Assembly (NCBI RefSeq): GCF_001969365.1
Contig: NZ_CP019312.1
Coordinates: 3,038,001 to 3,102,000 of the forward strand
Direction: 5' to 3'
Source: Tateyamaria omphalii
Lineage (GTDB): Bacteria; Pseudomonadota; Alphaproteobacteria; Rhodobacterales; Rhodobacteraceae
DNA: 64,000 nt
The number at the start of each line of letters is the position of its first letter. The stretch's first letter is position 1. The notes under the pieces were generated by a model, which saw only the letters and a list, made by a program, of their open reading frames with translations, did no database searches and was not told the origin of the DNA. The translations under genes were made by a program, and so were the position numbers. Below, piece by piece: positions 40,963 to 50,267 of the stretch.

Positions 40963-41990
40963 CACTGACCCTGACCAACATCGCCAAGACCTTTCCCGGC
41001 GGCACCAAGGCGCTTCTGCCCACGGATCTGGAGATTGCGAAGGGCGAGATCGTCTCGCTTCTCGGCCCCTCGGGCTGCGGCAAGTCCACGCTTTTGCGCA
41101 TCGTCGCGGGGCTGGAAACCCCCGATCCCGGTGCGAAGATCGTATTTGATGGTGAGAATGTAACGCAGCAATCGGTTGAGACCCGCAAGATCGGCATGGT
41201 GTTCCAGTCCTATGCGCTGTTTCCCAACATGTCGGTGCGCGGCAATATCGGCTATGGGCTGAAGATGCAGAAGCTGCCGCGCGCAGAGATTGATGCGCGG
41301 TTGGAAGAGGTGATCGCCTTGTGTCGCCTAGAGGCTTATGCCGACCGCGCCGTTACGGCCCTGTCGGGCGGCCAGCGGCAACGGGTGGCATTGGCCCGCG
41401 CCATGGCACCGCGCCCACGTGTGCTGCTGCTGGACGAGCCGCTGTCGGCGCTGGATGCCGCCCTGCGGGGGCAGTTGCGGGACGAATTGGCGATCCTGCT
41501 GCGTCAGTTCGGGATCACCGCGATCTTCGTCACCCATGATCAGGACGAGGCGATGGCGATCGCCGACCGCGTCGCGGTCATGAGCCAAGGTGAGGTCGCC
41601 CAGATCGGCACGCCCGAGGCGCTCTATCGCAACCCGGCCACCGGTTTCGTTGCGCGTTTTGTGGGCAATGCCATGCCGCTGTCTGGTCGCATCCACGCGG
41701 ACCAATTGCACCTGCCGGGTGGGGTGCTCGCCTTGCCGAGACACGCAGAGGGGCACGATGTTCTCGTGCGGGCGGAGGATATTCGCATCACTGCGCAAGG
41801 GCCGATCACGGCCCATGTCGAAACCGTAACCTTTCTTGGCACGCATTACCGCATCGCGCTGGCCGGGGCGAGTGACGCGCCGCTGTTTGCACTGCACACC
41901 GGTCTTTCGGCGCCCGCGCCGGGGGCAGAGGTGCGCCTGTCCATAGCGCCCGAGGCGCTGCTGATCCTACCCAGGGAGGTTTCCGCCTGA
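40959..41990 (+). CDS. ABC transporter ATP-binding protein
   Basis: 343 residues. Walker A GPSGCGKST (about 37-45), Q-loop VFQSYALFP, signature LSGGQRQRVALARAM, Walker B VLLLDEPLSALD and the H-loop VTHDQDEAM. The C-terminal 90 residues form a TOBE-like domain (ILPREVSA end). Belongs to the carbohydrate/putrescine/phosphonate importer group. Its last base is shared with the ATG of the phosphodiesterase gene (TGATG). Confidence 0.95.
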   Translation: MTLTLTNIAKTFPGGTKALLPTDLEIAKGEIVSLLGPSGCGKSTLLRIVAGLETPDPGAKIVFDGENVTQQSVETRKIGMVFQSYALFPNMSVRGNIGYGLKMQKLPRAEIDARLEEVIALCRLEAYADRAVTALSGGQRQRVALARAMAPRPRVLLLDEPLSALDAALRGQLRDELAILLRQFGITAIFVTHDQDEAMAIADRVAVMSQGEVAQIGTPEALYRNPATGFVARFVGNAMPLSGRIHADQLHLPGGVLALPRHAEGHDVLVRAEDIRITAQGPITAHVETVTFLGTHYRIALAGASDAPLFALHTGLSAPAPGAEVRLSIAPEALLILPREVSA

Positions 41991-42805
41991 TGCCCGGCTT
42001 TATCCAGATCACCGACACCCATATCGTCGCCCCCGGCGCGCTGGCTTACAGACGTTCGGACACGGCGGACGCGTTGCGCCGTGCCGTTTCGACCATCAAC
42101 GCCAAGCTGCCGCTGCTGGACGGCATTGACTGCGTCATCGTCACCGGCGACCTGACCGACCACGGCACGCCCGAAGAATACGCGCATTTCGCTGCGATCA
42201 TGGCCGACCTGGAACTTCCATGGCAGGCCGTACCCGGCAATCATGACCGGCGCGATGCGATGCGCGCCGCTTTTGCGCCTGCGCCTTGGATACCAGGGGA
42301 CGGGCCGATCCAATGGGTTCGCGATTTCGGCCCATTCTCGGTGATCGGTCTTGATACCCTGCTGGAGGGCGCGCATCACGGAGAACTTTCGCTTGACGGG
42401 GTCGGGTTTCTTGAGGCCGCCCTCGCGGCCATCGGGGCGCAACCTGTTGTCATCGCCACGCATCACCCGTGGATGCACAGCGGGATACCTGCGATGGATG
42501 CCGACAACCTGCATGGCGGTGCCACGCTGATGGCACGGCTTGAAGCGCATCCGGGGCCAGTGCGCATGATCTCTGGCCACGTCCACCGCGCCGTCACGGG
42601 CCAGATCGGTCGCGTCACGTGTCAGATCGCACCCGCCACCTGCCACGCGGTCATGACCGATCACCGGGTGGGCTGTGACCCGCAATTGACGTTCGAACCG
42701 GGCGGTTTCACGGTGTATCGCTGGAGGATTGAGCCGGAGCCGAGCCTGGTGTCTGATACCATACCGACAGGAAGCTTCTCGGGCCCGTGGCCATTCGCTG
42801 ACTGA
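41990..42805 (+). CDS. Calcineurin-like metallophosphoesterase (cyclic-nucleotide/glycerophosphodiesterase type)
   Basis: 271 residues with all five metal motifs of the class III phosphodiesterase family: ITDTHI (DxH), VTGDLTDHG (GDxxD), PGNHDRR (GNHD), IATHHPWMHSG and ISGHVHRAV (GHxH). Closest in pattern to GpdQ/Rv0805-type enzymes. Being the last gene of a LacI-ABC operon, it probably hydrolyses a phosphodiester brought in by the transporter, such as a glycerophosphodiester. No signal peptide, so cytoplasmic. Confidence 0.92.
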   Translation: MPGFIQITDTHIVAPGALAYRRSDTADALRRAVSTINAKLPLLDGIDCVIVTGDLTDHGTPEEYAHFAAIMADLELPWQAVPGNHDRRDAMRAAFAPAPWIPGDGPIQWVRDFGPFSVIGLDTLLEGAHHGELSLDGVGFLEAALAAIGAQPVVIATHHPWMHSGIPAMDADNLHGGATLMARLEAHPGPVRMISGHVHRAVTGQIGRVTCQIAPATCHAVMTDHRVGCDPQLTFEPGGFTVYRWRIEPEPSLVSDTIPTGSFSGPWPFAD

Positions 42806-43002
42806 CCGGCGGGAAGGGCGCCCCGACCTGTGCAAAACGGGGCACCGCAGATATGACGCCCATGAATGACCGGAGTGATGACGCACGCGTCGTTGCGACA
42901 ACACAGGTGCTGCGACTACGAACGCTTGCTGCGTCAGCGAAGTGCGAAAATCGAATGACGCGAAAATCCGCCCTGCCGACCTTAAACACCTGATTGGTCT
43001 AG

Positions 43003-43832
43003 GGTCAGGACCCATTGATTTCCGCTTTGCAGCGTGATTCACGGTTCGAAAACCGAGCGGTGAACATGTCTGATCTTTTCTGGCTGACGGATGCGCAGAT
43101 GGCGCGCCTCGAGCCCTTTTTCCCGAAGTCCCACGGCAAGCCACGGGTCGACGACCGGCGTGTGTTGAGTGGGATTATCTTCATCAATCGCAATGGCTTA
43201 CGTTGGCGCGATGCGCCTGCAGCATATGGCCCGCACAAGACCCTCTACAACCGCTGGAAGCGGTGGAGCGACAAGGGCGTCTTCGCACGGATGATGGCAG
43301 GTCTGGCTGCCGAGCACGGCGAACAGAAGACCGTCATGACCGACGCGACCTATCTCAAGGCCCACCGAACAGCGACCAGCTTGGGCGTGAAAAAGGGGGG
43401 CGTGGACGCCTGATTGGCCGGACCAAGGGCGGCATGAACACCAAGCTGCATGCCATCTGCGACAGCCAGGGCCGACCGCTCAACCTGTTCGTCACGGCCG
43501 GTCAGGTCAGCGACTACATCGGCGCACGGGCATTGCTGAGCAGCCTGCCTGACGTCGACTGGCTGCTCGGGGACCGCGGATATGATGCCGACTGGTTCAG
43601 AGATGCGTTGAAAGACAAAGGGATACGCGTATGTATCCCCGGCCGAAAACAGCGCAAGAAAACCGTCAAGTACGACAAGCGCCGATACAAACGGCGCAAC
43701 CGGATCGAGATAATGTTCGGCAGGCTCAAAGACTGGCGGCGTGTGGCAACCCGATACGACCGCTGTCCGAAGGTCTTCCTCTCAGCAATCGCTCTGGCTG
43801 CAACGGTCATTTACTGGCTATGAGTCCTGACC
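43003..43832. mobile_element. IS5-family (IS427-type) insertion sequence, copy 1
   Basis: 830 bases with imperfect terminal repeats GGTCAGGAC / GTCCTGACC and CTAG on both sides (42999-43002, 43833-43836), the duplicated target typical of the IS427 group. Contains an orfA/orfB transposase read through a frameshift. The second copy at 46375 has the same length and encodes identical proteins in inverted orientation. Confidence 0.93.
43066..43823 (+). CDS. IS5/IS427-type transposase (orfA-orfB by -1 frameshift)
   Basis: orfA runs from the ATG at 43066 to 43413 (115 residues, MSDLFWLTDAQMARLEPFF, DUF4096-like N-domain, KTVMTDATYLKAH with the first catalytic Asp). orfB continues in the -1 frame to 43823 (GRTKGGMNTKLHAICD, LLGDRGYDADWFRDAL with the second Asp, and RRNRIEIMFGRLKDWRR with the Glu). 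The AAAAAGGGGGG run at about 43390-43402 is the likely slip site. Intact in both copies, so transposition should still be possible. Confidence 0.92.
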
Positions 43833-43836
43833 CTAG

Positions 43837-44142: not shown

Positions 44143-44424
44143 ATGATCCAAAGCACCAAGGGCAAACTCGCTGCCAATGCCGTTAAGGGCAAGTATGGCA
44201 AAGGCTTCCCGGGTGACTTGATGAAGCGCACGCGGGCTATGCTTTCGGCGCTGGATGCTGCGGTTGTTGTCGAGGATTTGCGTTTCCCGCCCGGCAACCA
44301 CCTGGAAGAACTGAAAGGGGATCGGGCCGGGCAACACTCCGTGCGGATCAACGGGCAATGGCGCATCTGCTTTGTCTGGACGCCGAACGGCCCCGCGGAT
44401 GTCGAGATTGTGGACTACCATTGA
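44143..44424 (+). CDS. higB: HigB-family toxin (RelE/HigB mRNA interferase)
   Basis: 93 residues. Hallmarks: DLRFPPGNHLEELKGDRAGQHSVRINGQWRICF (in pieces, residues 46-78) and the ending PADVEIVDYH, which match HigB toxins, ribosome-dependent mRNA endonucleases. It precedes its antitoxin by 12 bases, the reversed gene order typical of higBA. The promoter places the transcript start at the ATG, so the mRNA may be leaderless. Confidence 0.93.
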   Translation: MIQSTKGKLAANAVKGKYGKGFPGDLMKRTRAMLSALDAAVVVEDLRFPPGNHLEELKGDRAGQHSVRINGQWRICFVWTPNGPADVEIVDYH

Positions 44425-44436
44425 AAGGATACGCTG

Positions 44437-44727
44437 ATGAGCTTGCTTGAAGACCCGATGCACCCCGGTGAAGTCCTGAAGGAGCTTTACCTCGATCCCT
44501 TGGAGATGGGGGCCATCGCGTTTGCGCGGCGTCTTGGCGTGCCTCGGACGCGGATCGAGCGGTTGATCAAGGGTACGACGGGTATCACGCCTGACACAGC
44601 GCTGCGCCTCGCCCGTGTGTTCAACACGACTCCGGCTTACTGGGTGAACTTGCAGACGAACTACGACATGGCGCTAGCTGCTAAGGAGATTGACGTTTCG
44701 GATATTGAGCCGCTTGTGGCTGCCTAA
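44437..44727 (+). CDS. higA: HigA-family antitoxin (XRE)
   Basis: 96 residues. HigA signature at the start, MHPGEVLKELYLDPLEM, then an HTH with FARRLGVPRTRIERLIKG and TPDTALRLARVFNTTPAYWVNLQ. It neutralises HigB and represses the operon through the repeats upstream of higB. AAAGGA precedes the ATG. Together the pair stabilises the IS-flanked segment or defends it. Confidence 0.95.
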   Translation: MSLLEDPMHPGEVLKELYLDPLEMGAIAFARRLGVPRTRIERLIKGTTGITPDTALRLARVFNTTPAYWVNLQTNYDMALAAKEIDVSDIEPLVAA

Positions 44728-44814: not shown

Positions 44815-45117
44815 ATGACCGACGAAGCCGCGGGAAAGTTCTTTATACAAGTGGCACCTTCAAGAGGAGCCGTAAGTCCGGAGGCCAATGCTGACGACTT
44901 CCTGGAGGCAACAGAAGAAAAACTCAAAGAAGTTTCGGAGCTTATTCGCAGAGGATGTGCAAATGTAGCCGAAGGAATGTTCGCCATAGCAAATCCCCCG
45001 GAAGAGATAGGTATGGAGTTTGGGATCGATGTGGGCGGTGAAGCTGGCATACCCTTTGTGACCAAGGGCACTATGAACGCCAATTTCAAAGTTAGTGTTG
45101 TTTGGCGAAAGGCTTGA
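44815..45117 (+). CDS. Trypco1-like (trypsin-co-occurring domain 1, CU044_2847-type) protein
   Basis: 100 residues. N-terminal FFIQVAPSRG, a middle helix ATEEKLKEVSELIRRG, and a C-terminal EIGMEFGIDVGGEAGIPF...NANFKVSVVW that matches the Trypco1 family as I know it (end pattern LEFGV-L...G-I...EANFKVTLTW). This family was named for co-occurrence with trypsin-like proteases in predicted biological-conflict systems. Here it sits six bases before a subtilisin-like protease gene. AAAGGA lies seven bases before the ATG. Likely a regulator or activator/substrate of the protease. Assigned from memory of the motif, not a search. Confidence 0.75.
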   Translation: MTDEAAGKFFIQVAPSRGAVSPEANADDFLEATEEKLKEVSELIRRGCANVAEGMFAIANPPEEIGMEFGIDVGGEAGIPFVTKGTMNANFKVSVVWRKA

Positions 45118-45123
45118 ATAGAG

Positions 45124-46374
45124 ATGGATTGCTTTTTGCCTGGACAAGTTGTCGTTGGACCTGGCCCTGAATGGTCACCCGAATTGGAAGGGACCATAAG
45201 TGAGGATCTCGGCTACGAGTTTGAAGTCCTACATGACGTTTTAGATTTGTTTCGCGTAAATGATATTCCAGTCCCTGACGGGTTAGATTGGAAAAAACAC
45301 AAATTTCCATTTGTCGCTCGAGTACCGGAGGGCACTGAAGAAAGAACGTCTGAGCTACTCAGCCGACAAGCATTCAGCAGAGGTCGTATTGGAGCTGCAA
45401 CCCCGGATTACCTTGTTCGCCCAAGTGCTTCGCTAAACATCGAACATCAAAATATCTCGGCAGCGACGTCCAGCGCCAAAGCGAACGCGTATCGTTCAGA
45501 GTGCGGCGAAAACTGCATCGTTGGAGTGATCGACTCCGGCGTCGAACCTTCTTTTCTTCAAAATCCGGGTTCGGTTTTGCATCGACAATTGAATGCACGA
45601 GACCCGGAAAACCCCGGAACTCCTTATCAGGACGCCACCGGACATGGTACGTTGGTCGCACACATCATTAACCAAATCGCGCCTTCTGCGAGGATTTTGC
45701 CTGTTAAAGCTTTTGATACAGACGGAGCTCTCAGTGACGTACTTGCCGCTTTATATATCGCCCATGCGGCCGGGCCTTGCGACATCATCAACCTGAGCTT
45801 GAGCATGAGTTGTGACGCCACATTTTGCGATGTGTGCACTGCGCCTCAAAATGCCTCGATGAACATAAGGCAGCTGAAGTTCTTCTTTTCGAACTTCCTA
45901 AATCTGGCAGGCGACGTGCTTCTCGTGGCAGCGGCTGGTAACAACCAGACGAGGGTTGCCAGCCCAGCAGCCTTCGAAAACGTTCTCGCCGTTGGCTCAT
46001 ACAATTTTAGAAGTCAAAACCCGCTGTCAAACTTTTCTGCTGTGCCAGTCGATCGGTTTATCTTGGGTCCGGACGGCACCAGGCAGATGGGTGAATGGCT
46101 CGCCAGTGTACCTGGTCGTCGGGCGAGCAAACCGCTACATGGCACGTCGTTCGCTACGGCTTTCGTGACCGGAGTAGCTGCCCAGATCGTTAGCGGACTA
46201 AAACGTGGTCCGTGCTTGTGTGAAGTGGGTGGGCCATGCCTCTATGCTATTCGCGACAATTCCAGCGCAAAAAATACAGAAATTGTCTTCGATACAATGC
46301 GTTCTGCCGCCGACACTACTTGGACCGGATTCGACCCTCAGCTGCATGGTCTTGGAAAACTACGCATGATCTAG
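45124..46374 (+). CDS. S8-family (subtilisin-like) serine protease
   Basis: 416 residues without a signal peptide. The first 120 residues are a non-catalytic domain (GPEWSPELEGTISEDLGYEF, ARVPEGTEERTSELL). The catalytic domain shows Asp in GVIDSGVEP (about 139), His in GHGTLVAHI (about 178), oxyanion Asn in AAAGNNQT and Ser in HGTSFATAFVTG (about 342). Cys-rich patches (CDATFCDVC, CLCEVGGPC) are extra. The TAG stop lies in the CTAG target of IS copy 2, so the native stop appears preserved. Cytoplasmic S8 beside a Trypco1 protein suggests a conflict effector. Confidence 0.88.
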   Translation: MDCFLPGQVVVGPGPEWSPELEGTISEDLGYEFEVLHDVLDLFRVNDIPVPDGLDWKKHKFPFVARVPEGTEERTSELLSRQAFSRGRIGAATPDYLVRPSASLNIEHQNISAATSSAKANAYRSECGENCIVGVIDSGVEPSFLQNPGSVLHRQLNARDPENPGTPYQDATGHGTLVAHIINQIAPSARILPVKAFDTDGALSDVLAALYIAHAAGPCDIINLSLSMSCDATFCDVCTAPQNASMNIRQLKFFFSNFLNLAGDVLLVAAAGNNQTRVASPAAFENVLAVGSYNFRSQNPLSNFSAVPVDRFILGPDGTRQMGEWLASVPGRRASKPLHGTSFATAFVTGVAAQIVSGLKRGPCLCEVGGPCLYAIRDNSSAKNTEIVFDTMRSAADTTWTGFDPQLHGLGKLRMI

Positions 46375-47204
46375 GGTCAGGACTCATAGCCAGTAAATGA
46401 CCGTTGCAGCCAGAGCGATTGCTGAGAGGAAGACCTTCGGACAGCGGTCGTATCGGGTTGCCACACGCCGCCAGTCTTTGAGCCTGCCGAACATTATCTC
46501 GATCCGGTTGCGCCGTTTGTATCGGCGCTTGTCGTACTTGACGGTTTTCTTGCGCTGTTTTCGGCCGGGGATACATACGCGTATCCCTTTGTCTTTCAAC
46601 GCATCTCTGAACCAGTCGGCATCATATCCGCGGTCCCCGAGCAGCCAGTCGACGTCAGGCAGGCTGCTCAGCAATGCCCGTGCGCCGATGTAGTCGCTGA
46701 CCTGACCGGCCGTGACGAACAGGTTGAGCGGTCGGCCCTGGCTGTCGCAGATGGCATGCAGCTTGGTGTTCATGCCGCCCTTGGTCCGGCCAATCAGGCG
46801 TCCACGCCCCCCTTTTTCACGCCCAAGCTGGTCGCTGTTCGGTGGGCCTTGAGATAGGTCGCGTCGGTCATGACGGTCTTCTGTTCGCCGTGCTCGGCAG
46901 CCAGACCTGCCATCATCCGTGCGAAGACGCCCTTGTCGCTCCACCGCTTCCAGCGGTTGTAGAGGGTCTTGTGCGGGCCATATGCTGCAGGCGCATCGCG
47001 CCAACGTAAGCCATTGCGATTGATGAAGATAATCCCACTCAACACACGCCGGTCGTCGACCCGTGGCTTGCCGTGGGACTTCGGGAAAAAGGGCTCGAGG
47101 CGCGCCATCTGCGCATCCGTCAGCCAGAAAAGATCAGACATGTTCACCGCTCGGTTTTCGAACCGTGAATCACGCTGCAAAGCGGAAATCAATGGGTCCT
47201 GACC
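46375..47204. mobile_element. IS5-family (IS427-type) insertion sequence, copy 2 (inverted)
   Basis: 830 bases, same length and same encoded proteins as copy 1 but in the opposite orientation, flanked by CTAG at 46371-46374 and 47205-47208. With copy 1 it frames higBA and the Trypco1-S8 pair. Its right edge lies in the relaxase gene and supplies new codons to it. Confidence 0.93.
46384..47141 (-). CDS. IS5/IS427-type transposase (orfA-orfB by -1 frameshift), copy 2
   Basis: orfA from the ATG at 47141 to 46794, orfB in the -1 frame to 46384; residue for residue the same as copy 1 in both parts, including the DDE positions. The equal copies point to recent transposition or to movement as one composite unit. 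Confidence 0.92.
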
Positions 47205-48717
47205 CTAGCTGTCCCTCAATCTCTCGGCGGCGGCTTTCGCTAAGGTCAAGCTCTGCTGCAAATTCTCGTCCAGCGTCTTGTAGCTCGCCTCGTCGTTCAG
47301 CAATCCGTTCAAGGCCTTCATGGATGCGGCTTGTGAACGAATGAGCAAGGTCACGCAGTCTTTCAAGCCAGCCAGCTCCCGCTCGATCCTGCCGGTCGAG
47401 CGTTTCTCCAAGGCGGTCAAGTCCTTCGCGGAGGCCTCTGAGGCCGTCACCAACCGCTCGACGCAGGCGAGCAAGTCGCGTTCCAAGGCTGTCAGTTGGG
47501 TCATCTAATCCTCCTCGATCCTGATGCAGGTGACGTGCCTCTCGCCCATCATGCAGGTCCTGAGCCGCGTCTTCGAAGGGTCCAGGATCAGCCATGTCCC
47601 CTCTGGTCTTTCGATCCGTGTCAGGCCCATCTCCGTCAGCTCCGAACGCGTCAGATGCACCGTCCAGAAGTAGCTCGCGGCCATCATCAAGGCGGTCCCC
47701 GTCAGCACCATCGCCGCAATCAGCCAGGGCGAGATCGTCAGCCAGAGGCGGATCGACCTCAGGCGCGTCTCGAACAGGCTCGCTGTCTCGGTCTGGAAGC
47801 GGCGCGTATCGCTCGCGATGGTATGCTTCGCGGCGCCCACAATGTTCTTCAAATCGATCCTGAAGGTCTTGAGCTGGGACGAGATCGAGGCGACGTGTTC
47901 GGCCCTGATCGTGTCGAGTTCCGCGTTCAGTTTCTCGCTCAGCCGGGTCGGCTTGCCAATCCTCATGGAAAATCTCTCCTTTCAACCGCCAGCGCTCGCC
48001 CGTGTCGGGATCGCGGGCAGTGATATAGGCTTTGCCGGTGCGTGGGAGGTCGAAGCCTGCGTCGGTGAGCGCATCGATCATGGTTGCGCGGTCGGTGATC
48101 AGGCCCAAATCGATCTGGTCCTGTATCCAGGCGTGCAGCTCGTCGCGGCCTTGCGCGCGGGTTGGGGTCTCGATGGTGTCGCGGACCTCTTGGGTGCGCT
48201 CCAGCTCCATCGGATCGGCCCAACCGTGGCGTTGGTTCATCACGTCGCGCAGGCTGTCATAGGCGTCCTGGTAGCCCGGCGGCGCGATGTTGAGGCTCTT
48301 GCCCGTGGTCAGCTCCAGGCGCGGCGTGCAGAAATGAAGCTCGACCCGGCCTTCGTGGCGATGGCGGACCCAGAGCACCTCATATTGCTCAGGGTCCAGC
48401 CCCGCGAAGGCCAGCCGCTCAAACCCGTCCATGACTTCGGCCTGCTGGTCCTCGGTTGGGGCGTCGGTGGCGGCAAAGCTGATCACACCCGCGCGGTAGG
48501 TCCATTGATGGCGGCTGGCATCGATCAGGGCTTCGGTACGTTCGGGATTGCCGCGCAGGACTTCGGGCAGGGGATCGCGCGTTACGGTCACGGGCGCGCC
48601 GTCGGCGTCGCGGATCTGGTCGCGGTTGCCGTCATAGGCCAGCACGCGCTCGGCCACGAGGTAGCCGACCGGCCCCGCGCCTGCGCCTTTGCCGTTGGGG
48701 AAGAACTTGATCAGCAC
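47170..48717 (-). CDS. Mobilisation relaxase (ColE1 MbeA-like, HEN type), C-terminus replaced by IS
   Basis: 515 residues from a GTG that overlaps the mobC stop. The relaxase domain shows LWVRHRHEGRVELHFCTPRLEL with the H..E.HF pattern and GKSLNIAPPG, as in ColE1-group relaxases that nick oriT. The rest is an Asp/Arg-rich hydrophilic tail. The last 11 or so codons (GSGPIDFRFAA) come from the IS end at 47204, so the native C-terminus is lost or changed. Two small genes lie inside it in other frames. Probably mobilises only with a helper conjugative system. Confidence 0.87.
   Translation of the reverse strand: MLIKFFPNGKGAGAGPVGYLVAERVLAYDGNRDQIRDADGAPVTVTRDPLPEVLRGNPERTEALIDASRHQWTYRAGVISFAATDAPTEDQQAEVMDGFERLAFAGLDPEQYEVLWVRHRHEGRVELHFCTPRLELTTGKSLNIAPPGYQDAYDSLRDVMNQRHGWADPMELERTQEVRDTIETPTRAQGRDELHAWIQDQIDLGLITDRATMIDALTDAGFDLPRTGKAYITARDPDTGERWRLKGEIFHEDWQADPAERETERGTRHDQGRTRRLDLVPAQDLQDRFEEHCGRREAYHRERYAPLPDRDSEPVRDAPEVDPPLADDLALADCGDGADGDRLDDGRELLLDGASDAFGADGDGPDTDRKTRGDMADPGPFEDAAQDLHDGREARHLHQDRGGLDDPTDSLGTRLARLRRAVGDGLRGLREGLDRLGETLDRQDRAGAGWLERLRDLAHSFTSRIHEGLERIAERRGELQDAGREFAAELDLSESRRREIEGQLGSGPIDFRFAA
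47205..47504 (-). CDS. Nested mobilisation-type coiled-coil protein (MbeB/MbeD-like position)
   Basis: 99 residues, rich in Leu/Ala/Glu heptads (ALERDLLACVERLVTASE, LKDCVTLLIRSQAASMKALN), consistent with a coiled coil. It lies wholly inside the relaxase gene in another frame. Start support is strong: GAGGAGG five bases before the ATG, directly after the stop of the other nested gene. Its TAG falls within the CTAG target of the IS, so the stop is probably native. Position recalls MbeB/MbeD in ColE1, which also overlap mbeA; the sequence similarity is not established. Confidence 0.72.
   Translation of the reverse strand: MTQLTALERDLLACVERLVTASEASAKDLTALEKRSTGRIERELAGLKDCVTLLIRSQAASMKALNGLLNDEASYKTLDENLQQSLTLAKAAAERLRDS
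47505..47966 (-). CDS. Nested mobilisation-type membrane protein
   Basis: 153 residues with one membrane segment (about 76-98, LTISPWLIAAMVLTGTALMM), an N-terminal helical region and a C-terminal soluble domain containing two Cys pairs' worth of residues (RTCMM, VTCIR). Wholly inside the relaxase gene, out of frame. AAAGGAGAG lies seven bases before the ATG, a strong internal ribosome site. Like MbeB/MbeC-type accessory proteins it may tether the relaxosome to the membrane; inferred from position. Confidence 0.75.
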   Translation of the reverse strand: MRIGKPTRLSEKLNAELDTIRAEHVASISSQLKTFRIDLKNIVGAAKHTIASDTRRFQTETASLFETRLRSIRLWLTISPWLIAAMVLTGTALMMAASYFWTVHLTRSELTEMGLTRIERPEGTWLILDPSKTRLRTCMMGERHVTCIRIEED

Positions 48718-49184
48718 CGCCGCGCCTCATCGAGGAGCGCGGCAAGCTGGCGTTCGATGACCACAAGGCGGCGCGCGACGGTCAGCGTGTCGAGGTCGGT
48801 GCGCCCAACCTTCATGGTGTGGTTCAGCCAGCGGGCGATCTGGTTGAGGTTGCCACCAATGCGCCCGACGGCCAGCACCAGCGCAGGATCGACACGCGGG
48901 ATTGGCTTGCGGCGGCGGGCCTCGGTCAGGCCAAGCGCCTCGCGCAGAAGGGTCGAGGCGGGCAGGCCAGCGGCCTCGGCTTTGGCGCGCAGCTGGGCCT
49001 TCTCGGACGCGGTGCAGCGGAAGACGAAGGTCTCTGTCAGCGGCTCTTTGGCGGGGGCTTTGCCCGCGCCGGTGGGGTTCGAAGGGGAGGCTTGCCGCCC
49101 CTCGCAAGGTCCTGTGTCAGAAGCGTCAGCGTATGACATGGGTCGCCTTGCTGTTTGCGCTTCGGTGGGACCCGTTGCGCTCAT
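48711..49184 (-). CDS. mobC: MobC-like relaxosome accessory protein
   Basis: 157 residues. After a variable N-terminus, the conserved part runs FRCTASEKAQLRAKAEAAGLPASTLLREALGL (in two pieces) then VGRIGGNLNQIARWLNH, the MobC signature (ribbon-helix-helix oriT-binding protein of mobilisable plasmids). It lies before the relaxase with a seven-base overlap, and its ATG overlaps the stop of the HTH gene upstream (ATGA). It would help the relaxase open oriT. Confidence 0.9.
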   Translation of the reverse strand: MSATGPTEAQTARRPMSYADASDTGPCEGRQASPSNPTGAGKAPAKEPLTETFVFRCTASEKAQLRAKAEAAGLPASTLLREALGLTEARRRKPIPRVDPALVLAVGRIGGNLNQIARWLNHTMKVGRTDLDTLTVARRLVVIERQLAALLDEARRC

Positions 49185-50035
49185 GATCTGATGCCCGCCG
49201 CCTGGATTTGCGCCTGCGTCACCAGCTCTGCGGCCAACAGCGCGTCGATCTGGCCGGGCGTGATGTGGCGGCAAAGCGGATGCTTGTCCGTGACCCAGTT
49301 CGCCAATCCTGCCAGCATCTCGGCTTCCTTCGCCTTCGACTGTTCGCGGTTCACGGCGATGTCCTCGACATAGGCGCGCCAGCGCCCAGATTTGAACCAG
49401 TTGTCCGAGAAACAGACCTTCGACCGAGTAAAGCCCGCGCTCTCGGTCGCGTAGGCCTTCACGGCCTGCAACAGGTCCTCGACCTCTGTCCCGGCGTCCA
49501 GAATGTCCCTGATCCGCCCGAGACACTCAGCCTTCCCGCGCAAACGGTCGGGCGGATAGGCGGCCAAAATCTTCTCAGCCTCTTCATCCTCCGCCGCCTC
49601 GCGCTCGCGCGTAGGTGGTTTATGGATGGTTTTAGGGTGGTTTGGGGGCCGTGGTGGCCCCGGTAGCCCGGCCACTGTGGCCCCCGTTCCGGGTCCAGTC
49701 TGGACGGGGTCCACTGTGGCCCCCGTCTCGATCTCGGGCTCGGCGGTCAGTTCAAGCGCCTCGATCCTGGCCAGATCGATCCGATACACGACGGTGAAAC
49801 CGTTCTTGCAGGTGCGCGCGCCGGTCTCGACCAGGATGCCTTCCTTCAAAAACTCGCGCACTGTTCGTTTGACTGTGGTCTCGCCAAGCTCGGTATGTCG
49901 CTGGATCGTCCCCTTGGAGCACCAGATGCCCGAACCATCGTCAGACGCCTTGTCCGCCAGAAACATGATGATCTGCTTGCGCGTGGCACTGCCGAACTTG
50001 CGCTCCGCGCATGTGTTCGCGACCCGCCAGCTCAT
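49181..50035 (-). CDS. HTH-domain plasmid-type protein (possible replication initiator)
   Basis: 284 residues. N-terminal winged-helix region RKQIIMFLADKASDDGSGIWCSKGTIQRHTELGETTVKRTVREFLKEG (positions about 19-65, quoted in outline) followed by a Pro-rich linker (GPPRPPNHPKTIHKPP) and an alpha-helical C-terminus. This layout resembles replication or primase-associated HTH proteins of small alphaproteobacterial plasmids. First gene of the mobilisation module. Function as initiator is inference; a plain regulator is possible. Confidence 0.8.
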   Translation of the reverse strand: MSWRVANTCAERKFGSATRKQIIMFLADKASDDGSGIWCSKGTIQRHTELGETTVKRTVREFLKEGILVETGARTCKNGFTVVYRIDLARIEALELTAEPEIETGATVDPVQTGPGTGATVAGLPGPPRPPNHPKTIHKPPTREREAAEDEEAEKILAAYPPDRLRGKAECLGRIRDILDAGTEVEDLLQAVKAYATESAGFTRSKVCFSDNWFKSGRWRAYVEDIAVNREQSKAKEAEMLAGLANWVTDKHPLCRHITPGQIDALLAAELVTQAQIQAAGIRS

Positions 50036-50190: not shown

Positions 50191-50267
50191 TGGCGACCCC
50201 GGCAGGATTCGAACCTGCAACCTGCCCCTTAGGAGGGGGCTGCTCTATCCAGTTGAGCCACGGGGCC
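50191..50267 (-). tRNA. tRNA-Arg (anticodon CCT)
   Basis: 77 bases with encoded CCA. Acceptor GGCCCCG / CGGGGTC with one G-U pair; anticodon stem GCCCC/GGGGC around loop CTCCTAA, anticodon CCT; T-arm GCAGG-TTCGAAT-CCTGC. Its 3' end faces the mobilisation module, the orientation used as an integration site by many elements, but no integrase or second att copy is visible in the window. Confidence 0.97.

Follow-up and report, generated by a model that had tools for sequence, protein, structure and literature searches.

The window analysed here is a stretch of 64,000 nucleotides from the 4.3 Mb genome of Tateyamaria omphalii (contig NZ_CP019312.1, positions 3,038,001 to 3,102,000). Two adjacent genes of its positive strand are the subject of this study: one encodes a Trypco1 protein of 100 aa (44815..45117) and the other a subtilisin-type (S8) protease of 416 aa (45124..46374). 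As an earlier note on this DNA had described, six bases separate the Trypco1 stop codon from the ATG of the S8 gene, and both genes are read in the same frame. A search for sigma-70-like promoters between positions 43700 and 46600 found none, compared with 1.8 expected in shuffled sequences. The GC3 was 0.455 for Trypco1 and 0.496 for S8, against 0.64-0.77 in the seven neighbouring ORFs, and the segment holding the pair is GC-poor (about 0.475-0.545 in 400-base windows). The low GC3 shared by both genes suggests that they were imported together.

The pair is preceded by putative genes for a HigB-like toxin (44143..44424, positive strand; PF05015, 56.4 bits) and a HigA-like antitoxin (44437..44727, positive strand; TIGR02607, 98.2 bits), with GC3 values of 0.713 and 0.722, respectively (0.64-0.77 in the other five ORFs measured). 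All these genes lie between two copies of an insertion sequence located at 42999..43836 (positive strand) and 46371..47208 (negative strand). The copies are 838 nt each, inverted and 100% identical, and enclose 2534 nt, that is, two like copies around a cargo as in a composite transposon; their assignment to the IS5 family comes from plasmid matches in Phaeobacter, Paracoccus, Dinoroseobacter and the like. The segment bounded by IS copies and containing a toxin-antitoxin pair that had been proposed before is thus present, but the HigBA genes, being host-like in GC3 where Trypco1 and S8 are not, are probably neighbours separate from the Trypco1-S8 unit.

Each of the four IS edges carries the tetranucleotide CTAG, and the left CTAG of the right copy includes the S8 stop codon TAG (46372-46374). 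IS5 elements duplicate their target on insertion; if CTAG is such a duplication, as may be the case, the S8 stop codon would be native. As the right IS begins at this codon, genes that once adjoined S8 may also have been lost. The outer flanks of both copies look unrelated when compared by eye. Beyond the right copy there is a relaxase-like ORF (PF03432, 25.6 bits) whose C-terminus is provided by the IS; together with two more ORFs in other frames and, further on, an ORF weakly matching HTH_36 it occupies positions 47170-50035 on the negative strand, which looks like a broken mobilisation region. A tRNA-Arg (CCT) gene at 50191-50267, also on the negative strand, marks the right end of this region; it was considered as an integration site and discarded, since no repeat of at least 15 bases of its end region occurs elsewhere in the window. 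On the left side, a phosphodiesterase-like ORF (41990-42805, positive strand; named by eye) had no DNA match in 18 genomes of the same genus, so the left flank may be strain-specific as well.

The small protein was assigned to Trypco1 by the profile search that the earlier note had called for: it matched PF19493 with 59.1 bits (Pfam cut-off, 24.6 bits; E 7e-16) along residues 9-99 of its 100, covering positions 9-98 of the 98 of the profile, and a second profile, NF041216 of NCBIfam, with 59.4 bits. The AF2 model (mean pLDDT 68, residues 1-21 below 50) predicts a long helix (residues 26-56) followed by two strands (64-74 and 87-98). Comparison of this fold with the PDB gave 161 matches at E up to 10 and none at 0.001; the best had an E of 0.54, and the highest probability among the 50 matches listed was 0.15. 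A sequence search of the PDB returned nothing better than E 0.11, PADLOC had no match for the protein, and relatives were absent from phages (E up to 0.01) and from viral contigs. The stretch GGEAGIPFVTKGT is common to the window protein and cyanobacterial members, several of them caspase-linked, although the cyanobacterial loci with GGEAG(I/V)P(F/Y)VTKGT were selected by patterns containing part of that stretch. Regarding earlier work on the domain, the paper PMC7159879 is presumably that of Kaur et al. 2020. Trypco1 was originally defined there next to trypsins, in VMAP conflict systems, and it is termed an adapter in PMC10907252; in the accessible text of both papers its role is given solely as its neighbourhood or as 'adapter'.

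The second protein belongs to the S8 family by its subtilase domain (PF00082, 96.8 bits, E 1.8e-27, residues 128-358), its Asp/His/Ser triad and its subtilisin fold. Residues D137, H174, N273 and S342 were invariant in two alignments, of 4 and 36 rows; we take D137, H174 and S342 to be the catalytic triad and N273 the oxyanion residue, so the full triad that had been read from the translation holds. The model of the catalytic domain consisted of blocks mostly with pLDDT 73-94 and dips to 42-66, and its best fold matches in Foldseek were subtilisins and a lanthipeptide protease, the latter on top. Three further features described earlier were borne out: a hydropathy scan revealed no hydrophobic leader (maximum 19-residue mean of 0.37 for starts within residues 1-25), in agreement with a protein devoid of signal peptide; ten Cys residues were mapped (3, 127, 131, 219, 230, 235, 238, 364, 366 and 372), accounting for the Cys-rich patches; and an extra N-terminal domain of about 120 aa precedes the catalytic one. 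Pfam gave nothing for this N-domain at E up to 1, and its blocks were modelled with pLDDT 28-53. We considered it as a propeptide, since its end (...TPDYLVRP) and the strand-helix-helix-strand-helix order in the low-confidence model were suggestive by eye. The idea found no support: hhalign, run against a profile built from the N-terminal regions of four cyanobacterial S8 proteins, returned a probability of 0.8%, and no Pfam family matched. A tblastn search of plasmids with residues 1-125 returned just two unrelated matches (E 0.09).

Searches of three genome sets gave partial matches to the S8 protein and no full-length relative: such partial matches occurred in eight of the 298 other phylum-draw genomes, one of the 294 other family-draw genomes and four of six cyanobacterial genomes. 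The plasmid search gave eight records, none covering 80% of the protein. In viral contigs at least 160 stretches encode an S8 relative, aligned chiefly over the catalytic region and none full-length; the best 80 were retained, and in these 80 loci (ORFs of at least 60 aa, flanks up to 3 kb) there was no match to the Trypco1 profile at E up to 1. The host genome itself holds three additional S8 matches.

Trypco1 is infrequent in the genomes searched. Counting the window genome, the class draw of 385 genomes contained 4 with Trypco1, the phylum draw of 398 contained 9 (8 of them scoring over the cut-off) and the family draw of 295 contained 3, and a further class draw of 48 genomes added no new locus; among Cyanobacteria it occurred in 26 of 146 genomes (25 over the cut-off). 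The whole genomes searched were those of Pseudomonadota and Cyanobacteria, Actinomycetota entering through plasmid matches alone. For the comparison of neighbourhoods we gathered 70 other Trypco1 loci, of which whole genomes supplied 55, plasmids 4 and a scan of genome contigs 11 distinct ones. This set is non-random; 12 loci were found by scanning with patterns built on the window protein and a Nostoc protein. Omitted from it were 3 of 48 cyanobacterial places (G754, G756:C13 and G692), two loci missed by the local profile (L053 and L098) and duplicates (L020 and L038-L041). The ORFs were called mechanically, and some loci end at a contig edge (e.g., L050 and L097).

Two main arrangements were observed, which bears out the proposed tie between Trypco1 and proteases. 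A close downstream ORF on the same strand (within 150 nt) was present at 28 of the 70 loci, and 17 of these 28 ORFs matched Trypsin_2 (E 0.001). At 27 loci a close divergent ORF lay upstream (within 200 nt); it contained a caspase domain in 21 cases (E 0.001) and nSTAND1 in 18. The 21 caspase-divergent loci were L015, L018, L023, L026-L029, L063, L067, L070, L072, L074-L076, L078, L082, L084, L086, L090, L093 and L094. A Trypco1 lineage thus sits divergent from caspase genes, mostly of the caspase-nSTAND1 type, so that 'trypsin-co-occurring' seems too narrow a name. The downstream trypsins carry fused nSTAND1, VMAP, EAD9, TIR-AAA or FGE parts, all of them of the kind found in conflict systems, which supports reading the window pair as a conflict module; short pairs consisting of Trypco1 and a trypsin-EAD9 protein also exist (L056 and L065). 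Other close neighbours were mixed, e.g., an amidase, a CobD-like protein, a transposase and a response regulator.

Some individual loci deserve description. At L077 (7889-9238) a single protein downstream of Trypco1 combines a trypsin, a TIR and an AAA-like domain. At L183, from the same family as the window genome, Trypco1 overlaps an FGE gene by four bases, and the N-terminal part of the FGE protein scored 26.3 bits with Trypsin_2 (cut-off, 27.6); two caspase genes, one of the caspase-FGE type, lie nearby (region 1999-9049 of L183). L051 and L052, from two alphaproteobacterial genomes, have a diverged Trypco1, and motif scans flagged no protease in their nearest ORFs.

The conserved co-occurrence of Trypco1 and S8 that the earlier note had anticipated did not appear: S8 was directly downstream of Trypco1 at none of the 70 other loci in a local search seeded with the window S8 (E 1e-5), which distant S8 proteins can escape, and it was not among the listed 25 of the 37 families matched by close downstream ORFs. 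Nor was there an S8 gene at L182 and L183, which lie outside the 70. The nearest approach was seen in two near copies, L075 and L076 (2 of the 70), in which a convergent S8 gene is about 0.5 kb away with another ORF in between. A Trypco1-S8 pair was not found described in the accessible literature on Trypco1. In the accessible text of PMC7159879 the word 'subtilisin' occurs once, concerning a different NucA-trypsin system; that of PMC10907252 lacks it and mentions an S8-WD40 gene beside a STAND-DGR locus. What is new here is an S8 protease in the position, directly after Trypco1, that trypsins often hold elsewhere, an arrangement seen once; the pairing of Trypco1 with proteases was already known.

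The relationship between Trypco1 proteins and their partners was inspected in trees, all of them built by a quick search on few columns and having long branches. In the tree of 72 rows, one branch with 99% SH-aLRT support split 21 caspase-linked from 18 trypsin-linked proteins. The caspase and trypsin labels required one change each in this tree, against a mean of 13.2 with shuffled labels (none of 500 shuffles was as low), a clustering that is aided by near copies. Labels were taken from Pfam for some rows and from motif scans and matching totals for the remainder; the trypsin label of L183 rests on its score slightly under the Pfam cut-off, L064 was labelled as other (its neighbour being an amidase) and L182 was left out. 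A previous tree of 73 rows, in which L064 was wrongly labelled, needed two changes for the caspase and three for the trypsin labels. A long branch leads to the window protein, which had no resolved place in the 73-row tree. In a reduced tree that kept all 18 trypsin-linked rows and 15 of the 21 caspase-linked ones it fell on the trypsin side of a branch with 97% support; an AU test did not reject its placement with the caspase lineage (p 0.278), and the GGEAGIPFVTKGT stretch, common to several caspase-linked members, points away from the trypsin side, subject to the selection by pattern mentioned above. We are unsure of the position of the window protein among the lineages as judged from these trees.

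The best reading of these data is that Trypco1 and S8 were acquired horizontally as a protease module with no recognised NTPase or sensor part. More specifically, we tentatively regard the pair, at somewhat short of even confidence, as a cytoplasmic Trypco1 conflict module in which S8 takes the place of the usual trypsin. The identities of both proteins, their tight co-orientation, the foreign base composition, the catalytic residues, the missing hydrophobic leader of S8, the same layout with trypsins elsewhere and the place on the trypsin side in the reduced tree speak for such a module. Against it stand the single instance, with none of the 70 other loci having S8 directly downstream; the trypsin partners elsewhere, which carry parts of the NTPase, EAD or TIR type when none was found in the window pair; and the result of the AU test, the lack of a promoter-like site in the search above and the IS at the S8 stop codon. 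As to function, we infer that defence, with Trypco1 gating the protease, is the likeliest role. Trypco1, encoded first, would probably be made together with S8 from a common transcript. It would most likely bind S8 and either keep the protease quiet or dock it to a trigger; upon the trigger, likeliest a phage or another invasion, S8 would be freed and would cleave cell proteins or one dedicated target, so that the cell would be stopped and the population protected.

Other explanations have to be weighed against the acquired module. The pair could be a remnant, cut down by IS5 insertions and rearrangement from a more extensive Trypco1 conflict locus, with the sensor or NTPase genes gone and the two proteins perhaps still made and no longer forming a system. 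The identical inverted IS copies that bound the segment, the right one beginning at the S8 stop codon, would fit this history, as would the adjoining relaxase-like ORF that takes its C-terminus from the IS, the low GC of the insert and the outer IS flanks that, by eye, are unlike two halves of one gene. We consider it unlikely, while giving it appreciable weight, because neither frame is interrupted and the catalytic residues are in place, short Trypco1-trypsin pairs exist elsewhere (L056 and L065), and the S8 stop codon would be native if the CTAG at the four IS edges is a duplicated target. Rather improbable is a unit that does not stand alone, in which Trypco1 as an adaptor joins S8 to a sensor NTPase whose gene lies at another site of the genome; this would agree with the term adapter used in PMC10907252 and with the proteases beside Trypco1 in other genomes, which frequently carry fused NTPase or VMAP parts, while the rarity of Trypco1 in the family (3 of 295, as above) speaks weakly against a fixed chromosomal partner.

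Transposition might also have put an unrelated S8 gene next to Trypco1 by chance, with no joint function. There is no second case in the 70 loci, no full-length relative of the window S8 was found and the host genome has S8 matches of its own (the three reported above); even so, the six-base gap in one frame, the matching foreign GC3 of both genes and the recurrence elsewhere of the order Trypco1-then-protease make a mere juxtaposition a poor candidate. Poorer still, and very improbable in our estimation, is a role in maturation, in which S8 would be a protease of the mycosin, QhpE or lanthipeptide-protease kind and Trypco1 its substrate or chaperone. NCBIfam did report mycosin (80.2 bits) and QhpE (62.4 bits) for S8, and the top Foldseek match is a lanthipeptide protease, but these scores are far under the cut-offs of 278.75 and 165, respectively, and inspection of the ORF list revealed neither a precursor peptide nor a modification enzyme beside S8.

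If the acquired-module reading is taken further, Trypco1 could be a gating or docking domain indifferent to the fold of the protease, with one lineage for trypsin-like and a separate one for caspase-like partners, and with S8 as a third, unrelated class in a minimal, two-gene, NTPase-free suicide or defence switch. We hold this extension as a whole to be doubtful. The window pair, with only two genes and a protease of unrelated fold, would offer a very small test bed for the function of Trypco1: if a subtilisin and trypsins alike are bound and held back by the domain, its function would be protease control, specific neither to trypsins nor to VMAP systems. The split between trypsin-linked and caspase-linked Trypco1 proteins supplies more pairs for such comparison.

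Among known systems, the closest in layout are the Trypco1-trypsin pairs, such as those of the ternary VMAP/MoxR-vWA systems, in which Trypco1 is likewise beside a serine protease gene according to the accessible text of PMC7159879. The window Trypco1 is directly upstream of its protease gene and on the same strand, as in the 17 of 28 close downstream pairs. Unlike those pairs, the window protease is an S8 protein: none of the eight window ORFs scanned with Pfam matched trypsin, so the locus is not a Trypco1-trypsin pair, and none matched VMAP, vWA or MoxR parts; in Trypco1 and S8 themselves Pfam revealed no NTPase, EAD, TIR or sensor domain. Trypco1 and caspase-like effectors have also been reported near clade 5A loci in the accessible part of PMC10907252. 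The cyanobacterial Trypco1-caspase loci resemble the window pair in having a protease class other than trypsin and, with the caveat that they were selected by pattern, the common stretch GGEAGIPFVTKGT; they differ in their divergent orientation, in the caspase often being fused to a STAND NTPase and in their separate Trypco1 lineage.

S8 proteases are known in other settings. The IetAS defence system consists of an S8 protease, IetS, and an ATPase, IetA. The window S8 has partial similarity to the S8 domain of IetS models (19.5 and 8.4 bits in PADLOC, where a generic subtilase model scored 36.2 bits; 14.1 bits in NCBIfam), far under the NCBIfam cut-off of 900, and it is not an IetS by these scores; its direct neighbours are Trypco1 and an IS, with no ATPase gene. 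The fungal HET-Q2 is an S8 protease of 388 aa, a size similar to the 416 aa of the window protein, that cleaves the gasdermin HET-Q1 in a cell death reaction, as described in the accessible part of PMC10989679. It differs in its fungal origin and in having gasdermin as its known substrate, and this cleavage provides a precedent for an S8 protease acting as a trigger of cell death.
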